From a virus: a stretch of 34,536 nucleotides of DNA. Below the pieces are notes generated by a model. It was given only the letters and a program-made list of their open reading frames with translations, did not search any database and was not told the DNA's origin. Below are positions 4,004 through 34,536 of this stretch, piece by piece. Location: the IMG/VR virus record IMGVR_UViG_3300020171_000086, positions 1-34,536 of that record, one strand, 5' to 3'. A program made the translations under genes and the position numbers. Each line of letters starts with the position of its first letter. Within the stretch, counting starts at the first letter, position 1.

Positions 4004-4138
4004 ATGGTTCTCAGACCAAAACGTGGGGCGGAAGGCAAGTCAGAGAAGGAGTGTTGTGCCCCCTATCCACTGCGCTATGACGGCCCAGGAGCCGGGGGAC
4101 GGTGCGAGAGGAAAATCAAGGAGGAGGTGTTTGAATGA
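4004..4138 (+). CDS. small putative zinc-ribbon protein (44 aa)
   Basis: The frame MVLRPKRGAEGKSEKECC.. contains CCAPYPLRYDGPGAGGRC and ends KIKEEVFE. The three Cys residues could bind metal. The stop TGA overlaps the ATG of the next gene as ATGA, which supports translation of this frame. The frame is open upstream to about 3943, but no better start with a ribosome site is seen, so the start is uncertain. Function unknown. Confidence 0.45.
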   Translation: MVLRPKRGAEGKSEKECCAPYPLRYDGPGAGGRCERKIKEEVFE

Positions 4139-4839
4139 AACTAGAAGGCTGTACCAGTATAAGCTGTAATAATTTTAATTGTGATTATTGCAAAAGGTGT
4201 TCACACGCTGTCTATTTTGGCTTTGGAAAGGATGAGTTTGGTAAGGTATGGAGGTGGACCTTTAATTCAATGTTTGGGCCGATGTTTAAAGATAAAAAAG
4301 GGGATGATATTTTGTGTCAGCCAGAAGCTAATAGTCCTGCTTGGGTTCTGTTTGAATTGTGGCAATATCGTTTTTGCCATGACAAAAAACACCCACTTCG
4401 TAATGTTTTAAACAATATGAAAACGCGGTGCTACAATACAAAAGACAAATTATATTTCCGTTATGGTGGTCGAGGAATTAAGGTTTGTGAAAAATGGATG
4501 GAAAACTCCAACTCTTTCTATGCGTTTGCGTTGTCAAACGGTTGGGACGCAGGGTTACAAATAGACAGAAAAGACAATAATGGAGATTATGAACCAGATA
4601 ATTGTAGGTTTATTACATCTTTGGAAAACAATCGTAACAGACTTGGGACTGAGAAAAGCATAAAAACCCTTAGCGATAACGGGGAAAAATGCAGGAAGAA
4701 GGTTAAAAACATATCAACCGGAGATGTTTTTATTTCCGGCACTCACGCAGCAAGGAGTTTAGGCTTCCATGAAAACGCTGTTAGAAAAGCAATCAACAGA
4801 AATACCCGTTGTGGTGGTGATTATTGGGAATATGTATAA
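4135..4839 (+). CDS. HNH/AP2-type homing endonuclease fused to a Cys-rich N-terminal domain
   Basis: The 234-aa product has three parts. Residues 1-85 begin with a Cys cluster (CTSISCNNFNCDYCKRC) and a segment rich in aromatic residues that is not typical of endonucleases. Residues 88-175 match phage HNH/AP2-like nucleases: MKTRCYN, YGGRGIKVCEKW, QIDRKDNNGDYEPDNCRF and NNRNR. The C-terminal 50 residues (VKNISTGDVFISGTHAARSL.. YWEYV) form a NUMOD-like DNA-binding repeat. It should cut a specific DNA target and spread its own gene. The ribosome site is strong (AGGAGGAGG) and the start is coupled to the preceding small gene. The N-terminal part may be the remains of an invaded gene. Confidence 0.75.
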   Translation: MKLEGCTSISCNNFNCDYCKRCSHAVYFGFGKDEFGKVWRWTFNSMFGPMFKDKKGDDILCQPEANSPAWVLFELWQYRFCHDKKHPLRNVLNNMKTRCYNTKDKLYFRYGGRGIKVCEKWMENSNSFYAFALSNGWDAGLQIDRKDNNGDYEPDNCRFITSLENNRNRLGTEKSIKTLSDNGEKCRKKVKNISTGDVFISGTHAARSLGFHENAVRKAINRNTRCGGDYWEYV

Positions 4840-4865
4840 TATGTAGAGAGCTGGCAAGGTAGGGG

Positions 4866-4892
4866 GCATAACCGACCAGTTGAGCGGGTTGT
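4866..4892. repeat. 27-bp direct repeat, copy 1
   Basis: GCATAACCGACCAGTTGAGC continuing to GGGTTGT at 4892 is repeated identically at 4983-5009, with a unit spacing of 117 bases. In this copy the flanks (CATAAC before, GTTATG after) can pair to form a hairpin. Confidence 0.8.
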
Positions 4893-4982
4893 TATGTGCC
4901 TTGTTTTCCTGGCTATTTTGGTTGATGACCGAACGTTAGTAGCACTAATCAGCAAAAGCGGAAATAGCCCGGACAAGAGGGC

Positions 4983-5009
4983 GCATAACCGACCAGTTGA
5001 GCGGGTTGT
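4983..5009. repeat. 27-bp direct repeat, copy 2
   Basis: This is identical to 4866-4892. The 117-base spacing is a multiple of three, so two of the frames read the same peptide in both copies (HNRPVERVV or ITDQLSGL). The flanking hairpin arm of copy 1 is not preserved here. Confidence 0.8.
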
Positions 5010-5222
5010 GGGAAGCGTGGCAAACGGGGATCGTATATCCTAACATGGGAAGATGCCTTAATCGAAGAGGAGGGGGCGTTTCCCGCAACCGCTCACTTAA
5101 CCGTTGGATGCGCCTGGCAGGGTGAGTCGTCAGGCACGGACTGAAGGCATTTTAATCTTGTCGGGCGCAACCGCCAACCGCCGCTTAACTTTACGTTATG
5201 GAATAAATCCATTGTGACATTT

Positions 5223-5242
5223 CTAATCAACCCCTAATCAAC
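5223..5242. repeat. CTAATCAAC direct repeat (possible integrase arm sites)
   Basis: CTAATCAAC occurs at 5223-5231 and again at 5234-5242, an 11-base period. It lies about 50 bases from the 3' end of the tRNA-like segment. Short direct repeats at one helical turn near a tRNA-type core are typical of arm-type binding sites of tyrosine integrases. Confidence 0.4.
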
Positions 5243-5292
5243 AATTCGGGTGTTTCCGAAAACGATAAAGTGCTTGAATTTAAAGGAAAAAA

Positions 5293-26998: not shown

Positions 26999-27197
26999 CC
27001 GGCCATATTCCCCTATCGACCCAGTCGTTAAATGCCGTTACGGCGTCTTTGACATCTTTCCACTTCACCCATTCGCCCTCTGGGTGCTCGTATATTTTAG
27101 GCTCAAAATGGTCAACTATTGGGGTGCTATATCCTGCAAATGGCCTGCCTGCTGCAATTGGAGATACTGCAAATAATTCTATCTTATATCTTTTCAT
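26955..27197 (-). CDS. hypothetical phage protein (80 aa)
   Basis: The protein MKRYKIELFAVSPIAAGRPF.. has a mixed alpha/beta pattern with PEGEWVKWKDVKDAVTAFND, and ends in a short basic tail. The start overlaps the terminase stop as ATGA, so the two are coupled. There are no metal-binding or catalytic signatures. Function unknown. Confidence 0.6.
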   Translation of the reverse strand: MKRYKIELFAVSPIAAGRPFAGYSTPIVDHFEPKIYEHPEGEWVKWKDVKDAVTAFNDWVDRGIWPVDRGAACNFVPKTL

Positions 27198-28888
27198 ATC
27201 GCCATCCTCTCCTTAATTTCCTCGGCACTCATGCCGTCATAAATTGATTTCTTATTTTTCGCCTCCGGGTTCATGGCCATCAGGGCAACCGCTGAAAAAG
27301 TCGCCATCAACGGATCAATTTTTCCGGTCCCGCTGGCCTGCTTGGTAATAATTATGGCGTTCCCCCTCGGCTCAACCCTAGCATTTCCGACACACCAGGC
27401 CATAAGCGCCTGGCCGCCGTGAAGGATCGCCTTTTCTGCCACACGGCGCTCTAAGGTCTTGATTGCGCCGCTCAATCGCCATCCCTGCGGGATTCCCACA
27501 ATCCGATCGTGTTCAAGCCCCCTGAACTCCACTTCGTCAACGATGTCGCCAATCCCGACCGGGTCCACCCCGATCCGGTCCAGAAGTCCGGACGCTTCGC
27601 ACCTTTCCACGATGTCGCCTATCTGCTGCACGTCCTGGCCGATCTCATCCACGATGATCAGGTCGCCGTCTTTGGCAAAATCCTTGTACCTGGCCGCCTC
27701 AGACTTGCGCCGCTCGAGGGCGATCGGGTTCGCCCATGCCCGGGTCCATAAAAGCCAGTTTTGCGACTCCGTAAGCCTGCCCAGTACCGCGAGCCCTAAA
27801 AGGTCGTCGAGGCCTCCGCCGTCGATTCCGATCTCGATCACTTCGCATTTTTCGAATATCAGTTCCAGGGTGACGATGCCCGCGGCGTCCTGCCAGAAGT
27901 CGGCGCCCGACCAGCGTTTTGATTTAAGCGTAAGGCCCATTTCGACGTTCAAATGCTTTGCAAGAAAGCCGCACATCGAATCGTCGCCGTTTTCCTCCGC
28001 CTTTTTAAACTCGCGCTGAATGAACTCTTCGTCGACCGACGCGCCCAGATTGGGATTTGTCACATAAAACATTTTAGGGTCAAGGTGCCGCTTTTCTTTT
28101 AAAATATCCTCCGGAAACTCATAGATCACTGGTAAAAAGCGGTTGTCGTCTATCCGGCCATCGCGGACGCCTCGAGCATAGTCCAACTTCTGTTTGAATA
28201 CTCCCGCCGGCGCTTCGTCTGATTGTGTCGACAGGTAAATAACAAACCCCTCCGGCCTGCTGGCAAGCCCCCCGCAAGCCTCCCGGAGCATGTTTTCTGC
28301 GTTCGGCTTCTTGCCCATGAGCCATAATTCGTCGATCAGGACGCCTGTGGCCTTCTTCCCGCCCACTGTTTCGGAGTCTGCAGCAACTACCTTCAGGACC
28401 GCCCCGGTCCCCCGGTGTGTGATCTGTCGGTAATGATCTTGAACGTGGAGCAGGTCGGAAAGCTCTTGATCGGCTTTGACCATATCCCGGGCAGGAAAAA
28501 AGCTATTATTGGCCACCTCCACGGTAGGGGAAAGGATTAAAAATTCAGCGGAATCGCGCCAGTTGAGCAATAACGCCGTCAACATTATTCCAGACGCAGA
28601 GCTTGATTTCGAGTTTTTCTTAGATATTAAAAGGAAAAATTCCGTTATCAGACGACGCCCAGACTCAGCGTCGTATGCACCGAAAATGGCCGATACAAAA
28701 TCAAATACCCATTGCCTGCCAATTTCGCCATACTTGGGCCGGTCCTGGACATCCACCAGGCGAAGTTCTTTAAAAACCGCAAGAGCTGCGTCGGCCTCAC
28801 CCGGAAACAGCGGCGGGAATGTGATCAGGGTTTCGCCGGATATGACGCGTTTTTGCCAGTCAGGGCATGATGTGGACCAGTTTAGCAT
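27194..28888 (-). CDS. terminase large subunit
   Basis: The 564-aa product has an ATPase part with a Walker A-like SKKNSKSSSA near residue 90, a Walker B VLIDEL near residue 185, and the coupling motif STQSDE, followed by a nuclease part with IGIDGGGLDDLLGL and the terminal GKIDPLMATFSAVALM. This is the HK97/Terminase_1 layout. It cuts and translocates phage DNA into the prohead. The start overlaps the upstream small gene. The layout suggests an HK97-like (cos) packaging line, though packaging type is not proven. Confidence 0.93.
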   Translation of the reverse strand: MLNWSTSCPDWQKRVISGETLITFPPLFPGEADAALAVFKELRLVDVQDRPKYGEIGRQWVFDFVSAIFGAYDAESGRRLITEFFLLISKKNSKSSSASGIMLTALLLNWRDSAEFLILSPTVEVANNSFFPARDMVKADQELSDLLHVQDHYRQITHRGTGAVLKVVAADSETVGGKKATGVLIDELWLMGKKPNAENMLREACGGLASRPEGFVIYLSTQSDEAPAGVFKQKLDYARGVRDGRIDDNRFLPVIYEFPEDILKEKRHLDPKMFYVTNPNLGASVDEEFIQREFKKAEENGDDSMCGFLAKHLNVEMGLTLKSKRWSGADFWQDAAGIVTLELIFEKCEVIEIGIDGGGLDDLLGLAVLGRLTESQNWLLWTRAWANPIALERRKSEAARYKDFAKDGDLIIVDEIGQDVQQIGDIVERCEASGLLDRIGVDPVGIGDIVDEVEFRGLEHDRIVGIPQGWRLSGAIKTLERRVAEKAILHGGQALMAWCVGNARVEPRGNAIIITKQASGTGKIDPLMATFSAVALMAMNPEAKNKKSIYDGMSAEEIKERMAI

Positions 28889-29160: not shown

Positions 29161-29649
29161 TTATTTCACCCTCCTTAACGGCGGCGCTCCGGCTCCGAAT
29201 TTCCCGGCACCTGCAGCGCGTGCCCTATCATCTTTATCCTGCTTCTTGCCTGCGCCTTCGCCCTTGCGTGGGTGTACGAATGGCGCTGCGGCTATGGCCA
29301 TTCGCGCCCTCGCCTCTTTGTCCTCGTTCGGATCGTTCATAATTTTCAGCATATAGGTTAAAGGGTCCAGCTCTTCGGCACTGCCGACCTTGCCCGGCGC
29401 TCCGTCCACTTCGGCCGCCAGTTCCGCCCCTAATTTCTCCATCAGCTTCTTTTCGGCGATGGATAGCTTTTCGCCCTTGCCCATCCGCACCAAAAACTCT
29501 TGATAAAACCGGGACTTGGCCTTTGTTCTGTAGGCCAGCATTTCCCGGATCTTGTCTTGTTCTTCTGATCTCGGCGATCCCTTGCGTGGTTTCGCGTCCT
29601 TTTGGCCTTTTTTCCTTCCCGCCCCCGGTCTGTAACCGCCTCGGCTCAT
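29161..29649 (-). CDS. terminase small subunit
   Basis: The 162-aa product starts MSRGGYRPGAGRKKGQKDAK, the basic GGxRPGAGRKKG start common in small terminases, followed by a helical core (..RFYQEFLVRMGKGEKLSIAE) and a later KEARARMAIAAAPFVHPR. It should bind the packaging site and regulate the large subunit. A GGGGGG ribosome site stands before the ATG and a promoter-like element lies about 40 bases upstream. Confidence 0.85.
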   Translation of the reverse strand: MSRGGYRPGAGRKKGQKDAKPRKGSPRSEEQDKIREMLAYRTKAKSRFYQEFLVRMGKGEKLSIAEKKLMEKLGAELAAEVDGAPGKVGSAEELDPLTYMLKIMNDPNEDKEARARMAIAAAPFVHPRKGEGAGKKQDKDDRARAAGAGKFGAGAPPLRRVK

Positions 29650-30842: not shown

Positions 30843-31097
30843 ATGCAAGCCCTTAGATTAACGCTTCACCGCCACTGGTTCGACCAAATCGCCAGCGGCG
30901 TTAAAAAAATCGAATACCGGCAGATCAAGCCATACTGGACGGCCCGCCTGGAAGGGAAGTCCTTCGACGAGGTCCACTTCCGTAATGGCTACACATCCCG
31001 CCGCCCCTTTATGCGTGTTAAATGCCTCAAGATCACAAAAAGCCGCAAACGATATATAATCCGGCTCGGCAAGATCCTCGAAATTACAAACCATTAA
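30843..31097 (+). CDS. ASCH-domain protein (84 aa)
   Basis: The product begins MQALRLTLHRHWFDQIASGV and continues KKIEYRQIKPYWTARLEG with FDEVHFRNGYTSRRPFM. This is the phage ASCH-domain pattern (LxLxxxWFDxIxSGxKKxEYRxIKPYW..FRNGY). ASCH domains are thought to bind RNA or nucleotides; the exact role in phages is unknown. The gene ends 14 bases inside the convergent methyltransferase gene. The ribosome site GGAGTTGC lies before the ATG. Confidence 0.85.
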   Translation: MQALRLTLHRHWFDQIASGVKKIEYRQIKPYWTARLEGKSFDEVHFRNGYTSRRPFMRVKCLKITKSRKRYIIRLGKILEITNH

Positions 31098-31851
31098 ATC
31101 TTTCCTTTATTCTATTGCAGCGCTCCTGGTTGATTTCTATCAGGAGCGTTTTTCTTTTTAATTGCTCCGCGACTATTAAAACCGTACCCGTCCCGCCGTA
31201 CGGGTCAAACACATAATCGCCTTCCTTGGAGCATGAGATCATGCACCGATGCGCCAATTTGTTCGGGAAGGGTAAACAGTCGTCATGAATTACCGCCCTG
31301 TCGGTAATAGGCCAGATCGTCGAATAACGCTTTTTTGAATCGTCAAAATAAAACTTGCCGCTTTTGATAAGCCAATATATTCTTTCATCAACCGGCATGA
31401 ACATTTTAGCGTTCTGAATTATTGTTGAGCTTTTATTCCAGATGATTTCCTGCCTTAAATCGAATTTGGTTTTTAATATCCATTCCAAGGGATTGATGGC
31501 TTTTTTGTTTCGGTATCTTATCTTGTGATTATAAAATAGTGAGCCATCACGATCGAGATATTTATAAATATTATTGATCACTAATATTTGTTCGGTTTGA
31601 TAATCACTCTCGGGTAAATCATCATCGTAAGCCGTCGCCATTTTGAGTAAAAACTTCTTGTTATTTTTAAACATCCCGCCAGAAGACTTTTTTGATATCG
31701 CCTCGAGCCTTTTATTTAAGCCCTGATTATATGGTGGACTTGTAATGCACAAACTCGCTTTTTTATCCTGAAATAATAAGGCAAGATCATCTTCTTTCCG
31801 GCAGTCACCACAAACAAGCCTATGGTCGCCAATTTCATATAATGTCGCCAC
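31084..31851 (-). CDS. DNA methyltransferase (SPPY class, adenine-N6 or cytosine-N4)
   Basis: The 255-aa product has GDHRLVCGDC at the start, the catalytic TSPPY near residue 40, and a C-terminal SAM-binding segment (VFDPYGGTGTVLIVAEQLKR). The order catalytic motif first, then SAM motif, is that of group beta enzymes. The GDHRLVCGD opening is often seen in enzymes paired with ParB-like proteins. SPPY is compatible with m4C or m6A; the sequence alone does not decide. It probably modifies phage DNA together with the upstream ParB and ABC-GNAT proteins. Confidence 0.85.
   Translation of the reverse strand: MATLYEIGDHRLVCGDCRKEDDLALLFQDKKASLCITSPPYNQGLNKRLEAISKKSSGGMFKNNKKFLLKMATAYDDDLPESDYQTEQILVINNIYKYLDRDGSLFYNHKIRYRNKKAINPLEWILKTKFDLRQEIIWNKSSTIIQNAKMFMPVDERIYWLIKSGKFYFDDSKKRYSTIWPITDRAVIHDDCLPFPNKLAHRCMISCSKEGDYVFDPYGGTGTVLIVAEQLKRKTLLIEINQERCNRIKERFNGL
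31121..31159 (+). terminator. rho-independent terminator inside the methyltransferase gene
   Basis: CGCTCCTG (31121-31128) pairs perfectly with CAGGAGCG (31141-31148), followed by the tract TTTTTCTTTTT. It ends the rightward small-gene transcript while also being part of the antisense coding sequence of the convergent methyltransferase. Confidence 0.8.
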
Positions 31852-31852
31852 A

Positions 31853-32983
31853 TTATCCTCCTGTTTGTTTTATAATTTTGGTTGCTTCGTCAACCGGAGC
31901 CGCCGGACCACAATATCTAAACGTGGCCGCTATTCTATAATGATAGTTTTTAGTTCTGCTCTCCATTTTTCCAGTCCCGGCATTATTTTTTGTTAAGCTT
32001 GGCTTTCTTATCATCTTCCATTTTTCAGATTTCATACAGTATGCGTTTCGCGCCGGATGACTTGACGTTCCGATATAATCCCATTTTAACGCTTTTAGAC
32101 ATGATGCCACATATTCCTCTAGTTTAAGTCCAATTCCGGCTCCTTGATAATCAGGAAGGCAAACAACCCGATGCCCCCGTTTTGTCCGCTTCAAACGATT
32201 ATTGACAAACTGAAGGTATGAATAAAATGCAACCGGAGCCCCTTCCCAAAAAGCTATAAAGCACTGCGCAGCCCTATTCAAATCTGCGCTTAGATAATGA
32301 TGCTGTTTGAATATTTCCCAAGCCTGATGATGCACGCGGGCAATCTCAAGTTTGATATCTGGGCGTCGCTGAACCAACCTCCAATGGAATTTATTATCTA
32401 CCGGGCAGTAAACCCAATCCGGCTGAAGCCAATCCTCAATATCATAATGGCATGATATCGCTATGAATTTTTTACCATATCGCCGCACTGTTTTTGCAAC
32501 TGCAGCACTTCCGCATTTTGCCACTACCCGATCAACCACTGACGTAAATTCATCAATAACGCATAGCTCTTGTGATTCTACCAGTGCTCGCGCAATAGTA
32601 ACCCGGAATTTCTCACCATTTGATAGAACACGGAACGGCTTAAACCATGATGGCGGCGAAGAAAAACCAACCGAATTTAAAATTGTAGATATGTCTTTGA
32701 TGCCCATATCTTTAGGGAATGCGTCAAGGATTGATTTCTCTTTATCCCATTGAAACGAATCATAAACATGGTCCTTAAAAAGCTCATCCTTGATGACTGA
32801 CTTACCGCAGCCCGAAGGTCCAACAATCAACCCGACATTCCAGGGTTTCTCATCAAGCGGTAAACTTACATCCCACTCATGGATTGTGTTTTCGCTCGGG
32901 GGGATATCAAACATTCCCTCAAGTTGTTTCACCCTCGGGGATTTTACAATTTTCGTTTCTCTTACGATATGAGAGCACGACAC
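31853..32983 (-). CDS. ABC ATPase-GNAT acyltransferase fusion
   Basis: Residues 1-190 form an ABC-type ATPase: Walker A GPSGCGKS (55-62), signature LSNGEKFRVTIARALV, Walker B LCVIDEFTS, and a switch His in AISCHYDIED. Residues 205-330 are a GNAT domain with IFKQHHYL, IAFWEGAPVAFYSYLQF and the CoA-binding VVCLPDYQGAGIGLKLEEYV. All key ATPase motifs are intact. There are no membrane segments, so this is not a transporter. The C-terminus (..KNYHYRIAATFRYCGPAAPV) is basic. The likely substrate is nucleic acid or a modified base, by analogy with Mom and TmcA, which are GNAT enzymes acting on nucleic acids. That analogy is inference. It overlaps the ParB gene by 22 bases. Confidence 0.8.
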   Translation of the reverse strand: MSCSHIVRETKIVKSPRVKQLEGMFDIPPSENTIHEWDVSLPLDEKPWNVGLIVGPSGCGKSVIKDELFKDHVYDSFQWDKEKSILDAFPKDMGIKDISTILNSVGFSSPPSWFKPFRVLSNGEKFRVTIARALVESQELCVIDEFTSVVDRVVAKCGSAAVAKTVRRYGKKFIAISCHYDIEDWLQPDWVYCPVDNKFHWRLVQRRPDIKLEIARVHHQAWEIFKQHHYLSADLNRAAQCFIAFWEGAPVAFYSYLQFVNNRLKRTKRGHRVVCLPDYQGAGIGLKLEEYVASCLKALKWDYIGTSSHPARNAYCMKSEKWKMIRKPSLTKNNAGTGKMESRTKNYHYRIAATFRYCGPAAPVDEATKIIKQTGG

Positions 32984-33480
32984 TTTAATCCCTCCTTTTC
33001 GAATCTATCCAATAATTCCAACTGATTGCCTTCTGATTCGCATTCGATATAAATTCCATATTCTTCCGGGATATTTTCGGTTTTTGGAATACCTAATTTT
33101 TCCTTCAACCAGTCCTTCGGTAAGTCAATTCCCCAGTCGATAAGCGGTAGTTCCCCCCAGTTGTTCGCCAGGGCGTCAAAGTCAAATTCACCGTTGGAAA
33201 CATTGTCACGGATCACGATTTCCCTTTCCTTTTCCTCGGTTAGACCCTCAATTAGGAATGTCGGCACCTCTTTCAGCTTCGCGGACTTGGCCGCCTCATA
33301 TCGCTGGTTCCCTGCAATAATAACAAGATCCCCCGTTCTGTTCGATAGAATCAAGGGACGTGCCTCAAAATATTCCTTATTATCCCGAATAGAATCACAA
33401 AGGGTTTTGAATTGCTTTTCCTTTATAATCCGTGGGTTGCCTTCCAGTTTTTTAAGGTCTTTTATTTTGCGGTATTGCAT
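32962..33480 (-). CDS. ParB-like nuclease-domain protein
   Basis: The 172-aa product begins MQYRKIKDLKKLEGNPRIIK and contains the ParB/Srx signature ILSNRTGDLVIIAGNQRYEA followed by AKSAKLKEVPTFLI and EKEREIVIRDNVSNGEFD. The GNQRYEA part is the conserved ParB box II. Phage ParB-like proteins of this kind occur next to DNA methyltransferases and are thought to guide or assist DNA modification or regulate packaging. AGGAGGGCCGG precedes the ATG. It lacks the helix-turn-helix of true partition proteins. Confidence 0.85.
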   Translation of the reverse strand: MQYRKIKDLKKLEGNPRIIKEKQFKTLCDSIRDNKEYFEARPLILSNRTGDLVIIAGNQRYEAAKSAKLKEVPTFLIEGLTEEKEREIVIRDNVSNGEFDFDALANNWGELPLIDWGIDLPKDWLKEKLGIPKTENIPEEYGIYIECESEGNQLELLDRFEKEGLKCRALIS

Positions 33481-34399
33481 CCGGCCCTCCTGTGAATGAA
33501 AAAACGTACCCCTTACACCTGCCTTGCCGTTTTTTTATTGACCTGTAAATGCTTGTAAAATTTATGTTTAGTTCCCTGGCCGCTTCCATCGCTGAATGAA
33601 AAATTGAAACTACCTCGCCGTTTTTAATAGCCTTTATTCCACGGCCATTGGTTAACATTTTCCTGCGCCATGTTGCGCGTGATTTCTCGGTTGCCGCCGG
33701 GTCTTGTGGTATTCCATATTTTGGATTGTTTGGTCCCTTAACGTCACGATGGGATTTAATCATTTTCTGAATCGTTTCCGGCCTGTGCCTTTTGCCCCAA
33801 TTCGGGCTTTTCCCATACATAGGATTGTTTTTACCGGACAGGGCGATTGACATCCGCCTCTTATAATCATCACCGTGCCGGATCTTCATCGCAAGCCGCG
33901 TCTCGCTTAACCTTTTGCGCGTTTCTGGTCTTCTTTTAATACCCAGGGAAGAATCCGCCTTTAGGTTTATGTTGAATGCTGGCCGCAGGGCGTCAATAAA
34001 AAATTGTTCTACACTGATAAGATGTTCTTTTTGAACTTCACGGATTAGGGCGAAGTGGAGCGACGCAGGGCCATATTTATTAAAAAATCTTTGAAGGTGG
34101 ATATTTTTATGGCGACTGGCGCAGAGGTCGTTTTTGTGTTCACGGATTCTTTTTCCTATCAATACGGCGCTTCCAATATAAATTCTGTCGTCAATGGAAT
34201 TAAAAATAGCATAGACGCCGCTTGTGTTTTTATGCGTCATGCTCTCATCGACCACGATTTCCCGCAGCTCCATCATTTCCGGGAAGTCTTTAAGGGATTT
34301 GATCAATTTATCCAGCGCCGGGCCGGTTATCGTTCTCGGATTATCCGGATTCAACTGGATTTGTGAAATCTTGACGGTTTTAATTGTTATTTCAGCCAT
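33452..34399 (-). CDS. ParB-like N-terminus fused to GIY-YIG homing endonuclease
   Basis: The first 52 residues (MAEITIKTVKISQIQLNPDN.. KSLKDFPEMMELREIVVDE) are the N-terminal part of a ParB-like domain, cut before the GG(N)MR box. Then a GIY-YIG nuclease follows (SGVYAIFNSIDDRIYIGSAV, KRIREHKND, FFIDALRPAFNIN), NUMOD3 motifs (RRPETRKRLSETR, NPMYGKSPNWGKRH), and a C-terminal NUMOD1 (FHSAMEAARELNINFTSIYR). The start at 34399 has AAAGGACCGAA upstream; the extra in-frame start at 34447 repeats AEITIK. The nuclease appears to have inserted into a ParB-like gene and replaced its C-terminus. Confidence 0.85.
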   Translation of the reverse strand: MAEITIKTVKISQIQLNPDNPRTITGPALDKLIKSLKDFPEMMELREIVVDESMTHKNTSGVYAIFNSIDDRIYIGSAVLIGKRIREHKNDLCASRHKNIHLQRFFNKYGPASLHFALIREVQKEHLISVEQFFIDALRPAFNINLKADSSLGIKRRPETRKRLSETRLAMKIRHGDDYKRRMSIALSGKNNPMYGKSPNWGKRHRPETIQKMIKSHRDVKGPNNPKYGIPQDPAATEKSRATWRRKMLTNGRGIKAIKNGEVVSIFHSAMEAARELNINFTSIYRSIKKRQGRCKGYVFSFTGGPDAIPQNKRP

Positions 34400-34536
34400 T
34401 TCGGTCCTTTGGTTTTTGATTGTGATTTCAGCCTTTCGTGTCGCCAAATATTTTTAACGCCAATAGTGGTCAGATACTTAATTCGTTTGATTTTTATATA
34501 CAACAATCAAAGAACACAATTAATTCTGTGCGTGCG

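Follow-up and report, generated by a model that had tools for sequence, protein, structure and literature searches.

The window analysed here, a 34.5-kb virus record (IMG/VR record IMGVR_UViG_3300020171_000086) taken at its full length, carries on its minus strand three adjacent genes, coding for a ParB-like protein, a single chain in which an ABC ATPase is followed by a GNAT domain (ABC-GNAT), and a DNA methyltransferase. A preliminary description of this DNA had proposed that the three form one modification unit, and the genes themselves are indeed adjacent, intact and on the minus strand from position 33480 to position 31084. The ParB-like and ABC-GNAT genes overlap by 22 nt, and a gap of one base separates the ABC-GNAT gene from the methyltransferase gene. 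For comparison, 188 loci were gathered, comprising the window and others from IMG/VR, bacterial genomes and named phages; they are not independent of one another, some being near-copies. The conserved unit among them is ParB together with ABC-GNAT.

The ABC motifs of the window protein are complete, with a Walker A (GPSGCGKS), a signature (LSNGE), a Walker B followed by DE, a D-loop (SVVD) and an H-loop histidine (His179), and across 90 aligned relatives all five elements, including the Walker B glutamate (Glu145), show little or no variation. The coenzyme A (CoA) loop of the GNAT domain, QGAGIG, which is of the Q/RxxGxG type, is kept in the same alignment. In an AlphaFold2 model of the whole chain (pLDDT 93.6, pTM 0.88) the ABC domain is plainly recognisable and the C-terminal part has a GNAT fold, and the whole-chain fold search and sequence matches in the PDB return ABC ATPases. 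Modelled separately (pLDDT 90.8), the GNAT part matches many GNAT enzymes in Foldseek, including Mom of FSL SP-031 (E 2.8e-4). Alignment, Pfam matches and model thus agree with the earlier account of a complete ABC ATPase followed by a GNAT domain bearing QGAGIG. No permease-like gene was found among the recurrent neighbours of ABC-GNAT loci, and the absence of a recurrent membrane-spanning partner supports the view, also taken in the preliminary description, that the ABC part is a non-transporter ATPase fused to a GNAT domain.

The tRNA cytidine acetyltransferase TmcA likewise joins an ATPase and a GNAT domain in one chain and acts on a nucleic-acid base, but its ATPase is helicase-type and its substrate is tRNA. 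Assignment of the window protein to TmcA was rejected because the domain that precedes GNAT is an ABC ATPase. In the whole-chain fold search TmcA (2zpa) was matched with an E-value of 2.8e-7 over 467 aligned columns, at a low TM-score of 0.27.

A ParB gene lies directly upstream of the ABC-GNAT gene in 159 of the 176 loci with enough sequence, so that the gene-neighbourhood comparison upholds the pairing of the two; the genes usually overlap (median 19 nt), and in one locus (L083) they are fused. The ParB-like protein of the window has a C-terminal extension (..IYIECESEGNQLELLDRFEKEGLKCRALIS) that is also present in other ABC-GNAT-linked ParBs. Extensions of the type ..CxxExxQxxLLxRLxxEGxxCRAL were recognised by eye in the 25 proteins displayed, and a strict pattern caught 25 of 162; a C-terminal extension common to these ParBs is accordingly an impression from their sequences rather than a counted result. 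A different ending is found in phage Grekaycon, whose ParB is Mom-associated. No ParA-like gene turned up among the recurrent neighbours, although no search was aimed at a ParA partner.

Relatives of ABC-GNAT are encoded in 77 phage records and in hundreds of viral and bacterial contigs, which argues that the gene arrangement is not due to chance. The phages include those of Gordonia, Pseudomonas, Streptococcus, Lactococcus, Aeromonas, Leptospira and Porphyromonas, among others, and the closest relative (locus L001) is 68% identical to the window protein. A combination of GNAT and ABC ATPase had already been predicted by Aravind and colleagues to place an acyl group of uncharacterised nature on a DNA base; PMC7824862, which cites this earlier prediction, names Tenacibaculum phage pT24. 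The pT24 homologue (H43) is 35.6% identical over 80% of the query (E 2e-52) and shares the same domain architecture; by this clear homology, the window protein belongs to the predicted ABC ATPase-GNAT family (pT24 type, phrog_11143). The suggestion that the system is new is hence overtaken by PMC7824862, whose available text contains no analysis of partners; ParB coupling, donor partners and exchange with Mom-like genes are added here. One annotated record bears a related label, 'MK0520 protein, ABC-type ATPase fused to a predicted ...'.

The two domains are not always found in one chain. ABC and GNAT are encoded by two overlapping genes in Lactococcus P335 and Oenococcus phages. In SSU5-type phage-plasmids, Nickievirus and Rhizobium phages (RHEph10), ParB, ABC ATPase and a GNAT-like protein (phrog_930, phrog_293, phrog_886) are separate genes upstream of that for the terminase large subunit (TerL). 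Their ABC ATPase is homologous to that of the window (phrog_11143, 8e-24), whereas the separate GNAT-like protein, of 296 aa, is strongly diverged and weakly GNAT-like. An ABC-only match occurs in hundreds of enterobacterial plasmid records. The phrog_886 proteins of SSU5-type phage-plasmids (L236:4362-5252, L237:4705-5589, L238:3925-4806) are annotated 'ABC transporter ATP-binding'; this annotation is likely to be wrong, and the proteins are likely to be diverged GNATs without an ABC domain.

ABC-GNAT also exchanges places with Mom-like GNATs. In Arthrobacter phages, a single slot holds ABC-GNAT in EastWest and a Mom-like GNAT (phrog_1384) in Grekaycon. The slot is bordered at one end by genes for a conserved protein and ParB, and at the other by those for a DNA-binding protein and the sliding clamp; the flanking proteins of the two phages are 55%, 55%, 80% and 43% identical. 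In Porphyromonas phages, ABC-GNAT and a formyltransferase occupy in 006a the slot that in 015a holds a Mom-like GNAT, the flanking DNA being 71% identical on the left (1.09 kb) and 83% on the right (87 bp). That Mom, an enzyme with an acyltransferase fold, modifies DNA is established by experiment (PMC7824862, PMC6483171), and the exchange within the same slots suggests that ABC-GNAT does a job equivalent to that of Mom. The two also have in common the GNAT fold and, in some phages, a ParB neighbour, as ParB adjoins the Mom-like genes of Pickles13 and Grekaycon. Towards the N-terminal end of the domain, HHYLS of the window GNAT may correspond to the HYS-type motif of Mom in the region of the first helix, a placement given by a weak alignment only.

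In other phages, the genes following ABC-GNAT, often with 4-nt overlaps, code for the aspartate decarboxylase PanD (PF02261) and a short CoA-transferase III (PF02515); alternatively, a formyltransferase (PF00551) or, in L109, a type I CoA-transferase subunit (PF01144) follows. In reverse searches, ABC-GNAT adjoined CoA-transferase III in 27 of 28 viral contigs, the exception beginning inside the gene, and PanD in 22 of 23, with one real exception (L233); by our count from the tabulated contigs, these represent about 17 distinct lineages when near-copies are discounted. Within the phage collection, CoA-transferase III occurs in Jace only (two records), where it adjoins ABC-GNAT, and 11 of the 14 phage matches of the formyltransferase are the gene right after ABC-GNAT; Komp_PAO1_1 is a phage with the formyltransferase, and Jace one with both PanD and CoA-transferase. 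The PanD proteins keep the Gly-Ser self-cleavage site, and the CoA-transferases have, at the catalytic position, an invariant Asp that is part of a GDT motif; both elements have catalytic roles in their enzymes. Such near-exclusive linkage points to a dedicated acyl-CoA donor in those phages, most simply beta-alanyl-CoA. The literature searched contained nothing that connects PanD or CoA-transferase with the modification of phage DNA.

Several of these donor loci have features of their own. A PanD-CoA-transferase pair is flanked by two ABC-GNAT genes in one operon in L197 (878-1978 and 3035-4138), and likewise in L198, L200, L201, L203 and L211. The exceptional PanD (L233:4001-4357), the sole phage-type PanD away from ABC-GNAT, has neighbours that resemble oxygenases, a radical SAM enzyme and a desaturase. 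In L109, whose ABC-GNAT is 59% identical to the window protein, the type I CoA-transferase alpha-like subunit (4708-5274) directly follows ABC-GNAT and the contig ends there; a scan for this subunit recovered its own contig only, so this partner is represented by one locus. Elsewhere, proteins of 143-171 aa with the motif SGCGIM.. are encoded near ABC-GNAT, mostly right after it (L111, L126, L143, L164, L188, L030); they match no Pfam or PHROG family and possibly represent another donor or accessory enzyme.

The adjacency of PanD in some loci admits a different explanation, in which the GNAT part acts as a PanD activator resembling PanZ, itself a GNAT-fold protein, and the module makes beta-alanine or CoA and does not modify DNA. 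One BFVD match to the GNAT fold labelled aspartate 1-decarboxylase would fit such a role. It is nevertheless highly improbable, for most ABC-GNAT loci have no PanD, and it leaves unexplained the ParB, the ABC domain, the formyltransferase partners and the CoA-transferases that occur without PanD (L192, L196, L202, L212).

The methyltransferase of the window has a different standing. Its PF01555 match and the position of SPPY, motif IV, ahead of FDPYGGTG, motif I, which is the beta order as read from the sequence, concur with its earlier assignment to group beta. A methyltransferase of this family lies within 3 kb of ABC-GNAT in one of the 188 loci by homology, namely the window alone, and in at most three by motif search, and it was rejected as a conserved third component. 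In L001, ABC-GNAT is followed directly by a convergent gene for an ASCH-domain-like protein, with no methyltransferase between them, and the methyltransferase of the window therefore appears to be an insertion between the ABC-GNAT and ASCH genes. A unit in which methyltransferase and ABC-GNAT act together on the same site would accord with the single base that separates the two genes in the window, yet it is very unlikely given this distribution. The methyltransferase may instead be a separate protective mark that has landed beside the module.

The ASCH gene of the window is convergent and lies tail-to-tail with the methyltransferase gene. An ASCH gene that runs towards the 3′ end of the ABC-GNAT operon in convergent orientation is present in 30 of the 188 loci (the window at 30843-31097 on the plus strand, L001:1673-1927, and 28 others), irrespective of the last enzyme of the operon. 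The N4-acylcytosine amidohydrolase YqfB has the catalytic residues Lys21, Thr24 and Glu74 (PMC9599836). Compared by eye with the YqfB motif, that of the window protein, GVKKIEYR, has Glu in place of Thr24; identification as a YqfB-type acylcytosine hydrolase was rejected on this account. A role of the ASCH protein as reader or eraser of a mark is possible.

Beyond the ASCH gene follow, downstream, the genes for the terminase small subunit (TerS), TerL and then the portal (Table 1). The upstream neighbour of the ParB-like gene is an open reading frame (ORF) of the GIY-YIG/NUMOD3 type, in which the approximately 53 residues preceding the endonuclease part are the in-frame N-terminus of another ParB, matching the L001 ParB N-terminus at 72% identity and ending exactly at IVVDESMT, a conserved ParB position. 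These sequences suggest that the GIY-YIG ORF marks the point where an earlier copy of ParB was severed, and that the operon is now served by a second, intact ParB. A group I intron around this ORF was considered and rejected, nothing in the window reaching Rfam gathering scores. A nucleotide search of phages with the window segment returned no match. The GIY-YIG ORF with its ParB fragment, the convergent ASCH gene and the nearby terminase genes had not been mentioned in the preliminary description. Elsewhere in the window, an HNH endonuclease gene (4135-4839, plus strand) lies on the strand opposite to the majority of genes.

Table 1. Features of the ABC-GNAT locus and its surroundings, in window coordinates
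Feature	Position	Strand	Size or residues	Matches
ParB-like protein; ParB/Srx N-terminal domain	32962..33480	-	172 aa	PF02195 (E 3.6e-6)
ABC ATPase-GNAT, one chain	31853..32983	-	376 aa	PF00005 (8.5e-8), PF00583 (4.9e-4), phrog_11143 (2e-105)
ABC ATPase part	32375..32983	-	residues 1-203	
Walker A	32821-32798	-		
Signature LSNGE	32626-32612	-		
Walker B/DE	32566-32549	-		
H-loop His	32449-32447	-		
GNAT part	31853..32374	-	residues 204-376	
HHYLS motif	32302-32288	-		
CoA loop QGAGIG	32146-32129	-		
N6/N4 amino DNA methyltransferase, beta-type	31084..31851	-	255 aa	PF01555 (3.6e-29)
ASCH-domain-like protein	30843..31097	+	84 aa	PF04266 (weak, E 0.006), phrog_625 (3.6e-17)
GIY-YIG/NUMOD homing-endonuclease ORF	33452..34447	-		PF01541, PF07460
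Terminase small subunit (context)	29161..29649	-		phrog_641 (6.5e-17)
Terminase large subunit (context)	27194..28888	-		PF20441, PF03354, phrog_9

Taken as a whole, we favour as the probable interpretation that ParB and ABC-GNAT constitute a Mom-like, ATP-driven module with which phages acylate their own DNA. Of the earlier proposal of an acyl DNA modification that works with methylation, this retains a ParB-coupled acylation, to which the Mom-like exchange and the CoA-donor genes lend weight, and drops the methyltransferase, which is missing from the unit in L001 and essentially all other loci. Several points weigh against such a module. We found no experiment on any member of the ABC-GNAT family in the literature searched, consistent with the earlier remark that the fusion has no characterised function, and no donor gene is visible in the window. 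The window protein has no significant sequence similarity to Mom, lacking a phrog_1384 match and reaching an hhalign probability of 7%, so that membership in Mom by sequence was rejected; the ATPase domain, for its part, is absent from Mom. The folds nearest to the GNAT part in Foldseek are mostly protein or small-molecule acetyltransferases, those closest in the PDB being of the RimI/NAA50/IAA type. They would suit a role in host takeover in which the acyl group goes to some protein or small molecule, be it host RNA polymerase, the ribosome, an antibiotic or a nucleotide; Rac and other phage GNATs modify proteins of the host, according to work cited in PMC7824862. We consider such a target quite unlikely, because the domain is strongly linked to ParB and to an ABC ATPase, two classes associated with DNA, and because Mom-like genes exchange with the module in the same slot. 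Finally, TerS/TerL-like genes lie within 3 kb of the module in 117 of the 159 loci with enough downstream sequence, and the split versions in SSU5-type phage-plasmids, RHEph10 and Nickievirus stand just upstream of TerL. This proximity could reflect a packaging accessory, with ParB and the ABC ATPase acting on DNA at pac/cos or on terminase and GNAT acylating either the pac site alone or a protein of the packaging machinery; we judge this unlikely, because pT24, P12024S, Komp and Aeromonas PX29 carry the module far from terminase, and because a packaging role is hard to square with the PanD/CoA-transferase or formyltransferase donors and the Mom-like exchange.

DNA acylation by ParB and ABC-GNAT leads us to infer the following scheme, which covers DNA as the target, the modified base and its acyl group, the part played by ATP, the benefit against restriction and the donor used by the window phage. 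The ParB-like protein would bring the enzyme to DNA or regulate it, the ABC domains would come together on ATP as a dimer that opens or grips the DNA, and the GNAT domain would transfer an acyl group from acyl-CoA to the exocyclic amine of a base, which by analogy might be adenine if the enzyme resembles Mom and cytosine if it resembles TmcA. Phage DNA acylated in this way would resist restriction and be hidden from host enzymes. In some relatives, PanD would convert aspartate to beta-alanine, the CoA-transferase would form beta-alanyl-CoA, and the acylated base would follow; other relatives would recruit a type I CoA-transferase or formyltransferase. Host acyl-CoA would serve as the donor in the window phage, given that no donor gene is visible there.

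A more specific version, which we put forward tentatively and regard as possible though doubtful, is an ATP-driven amino-acyl transfer to DNA with interchangeable donor cassettes, leaving a beta-alanyl mark in phages with PanD and CoA-transferase operons. If true, this mark would be a positively charged base adduct, of which we know of no other natural case, and formyltransferase operons would give a formylated relative. The family is widespread, and its donor genes turn what was an unknown acyl group into a specific prediction for mass spectrometry; the exchange with Mom-like genes points to virion DNA as the material for measurement and supplies matched phage pairs as controls.

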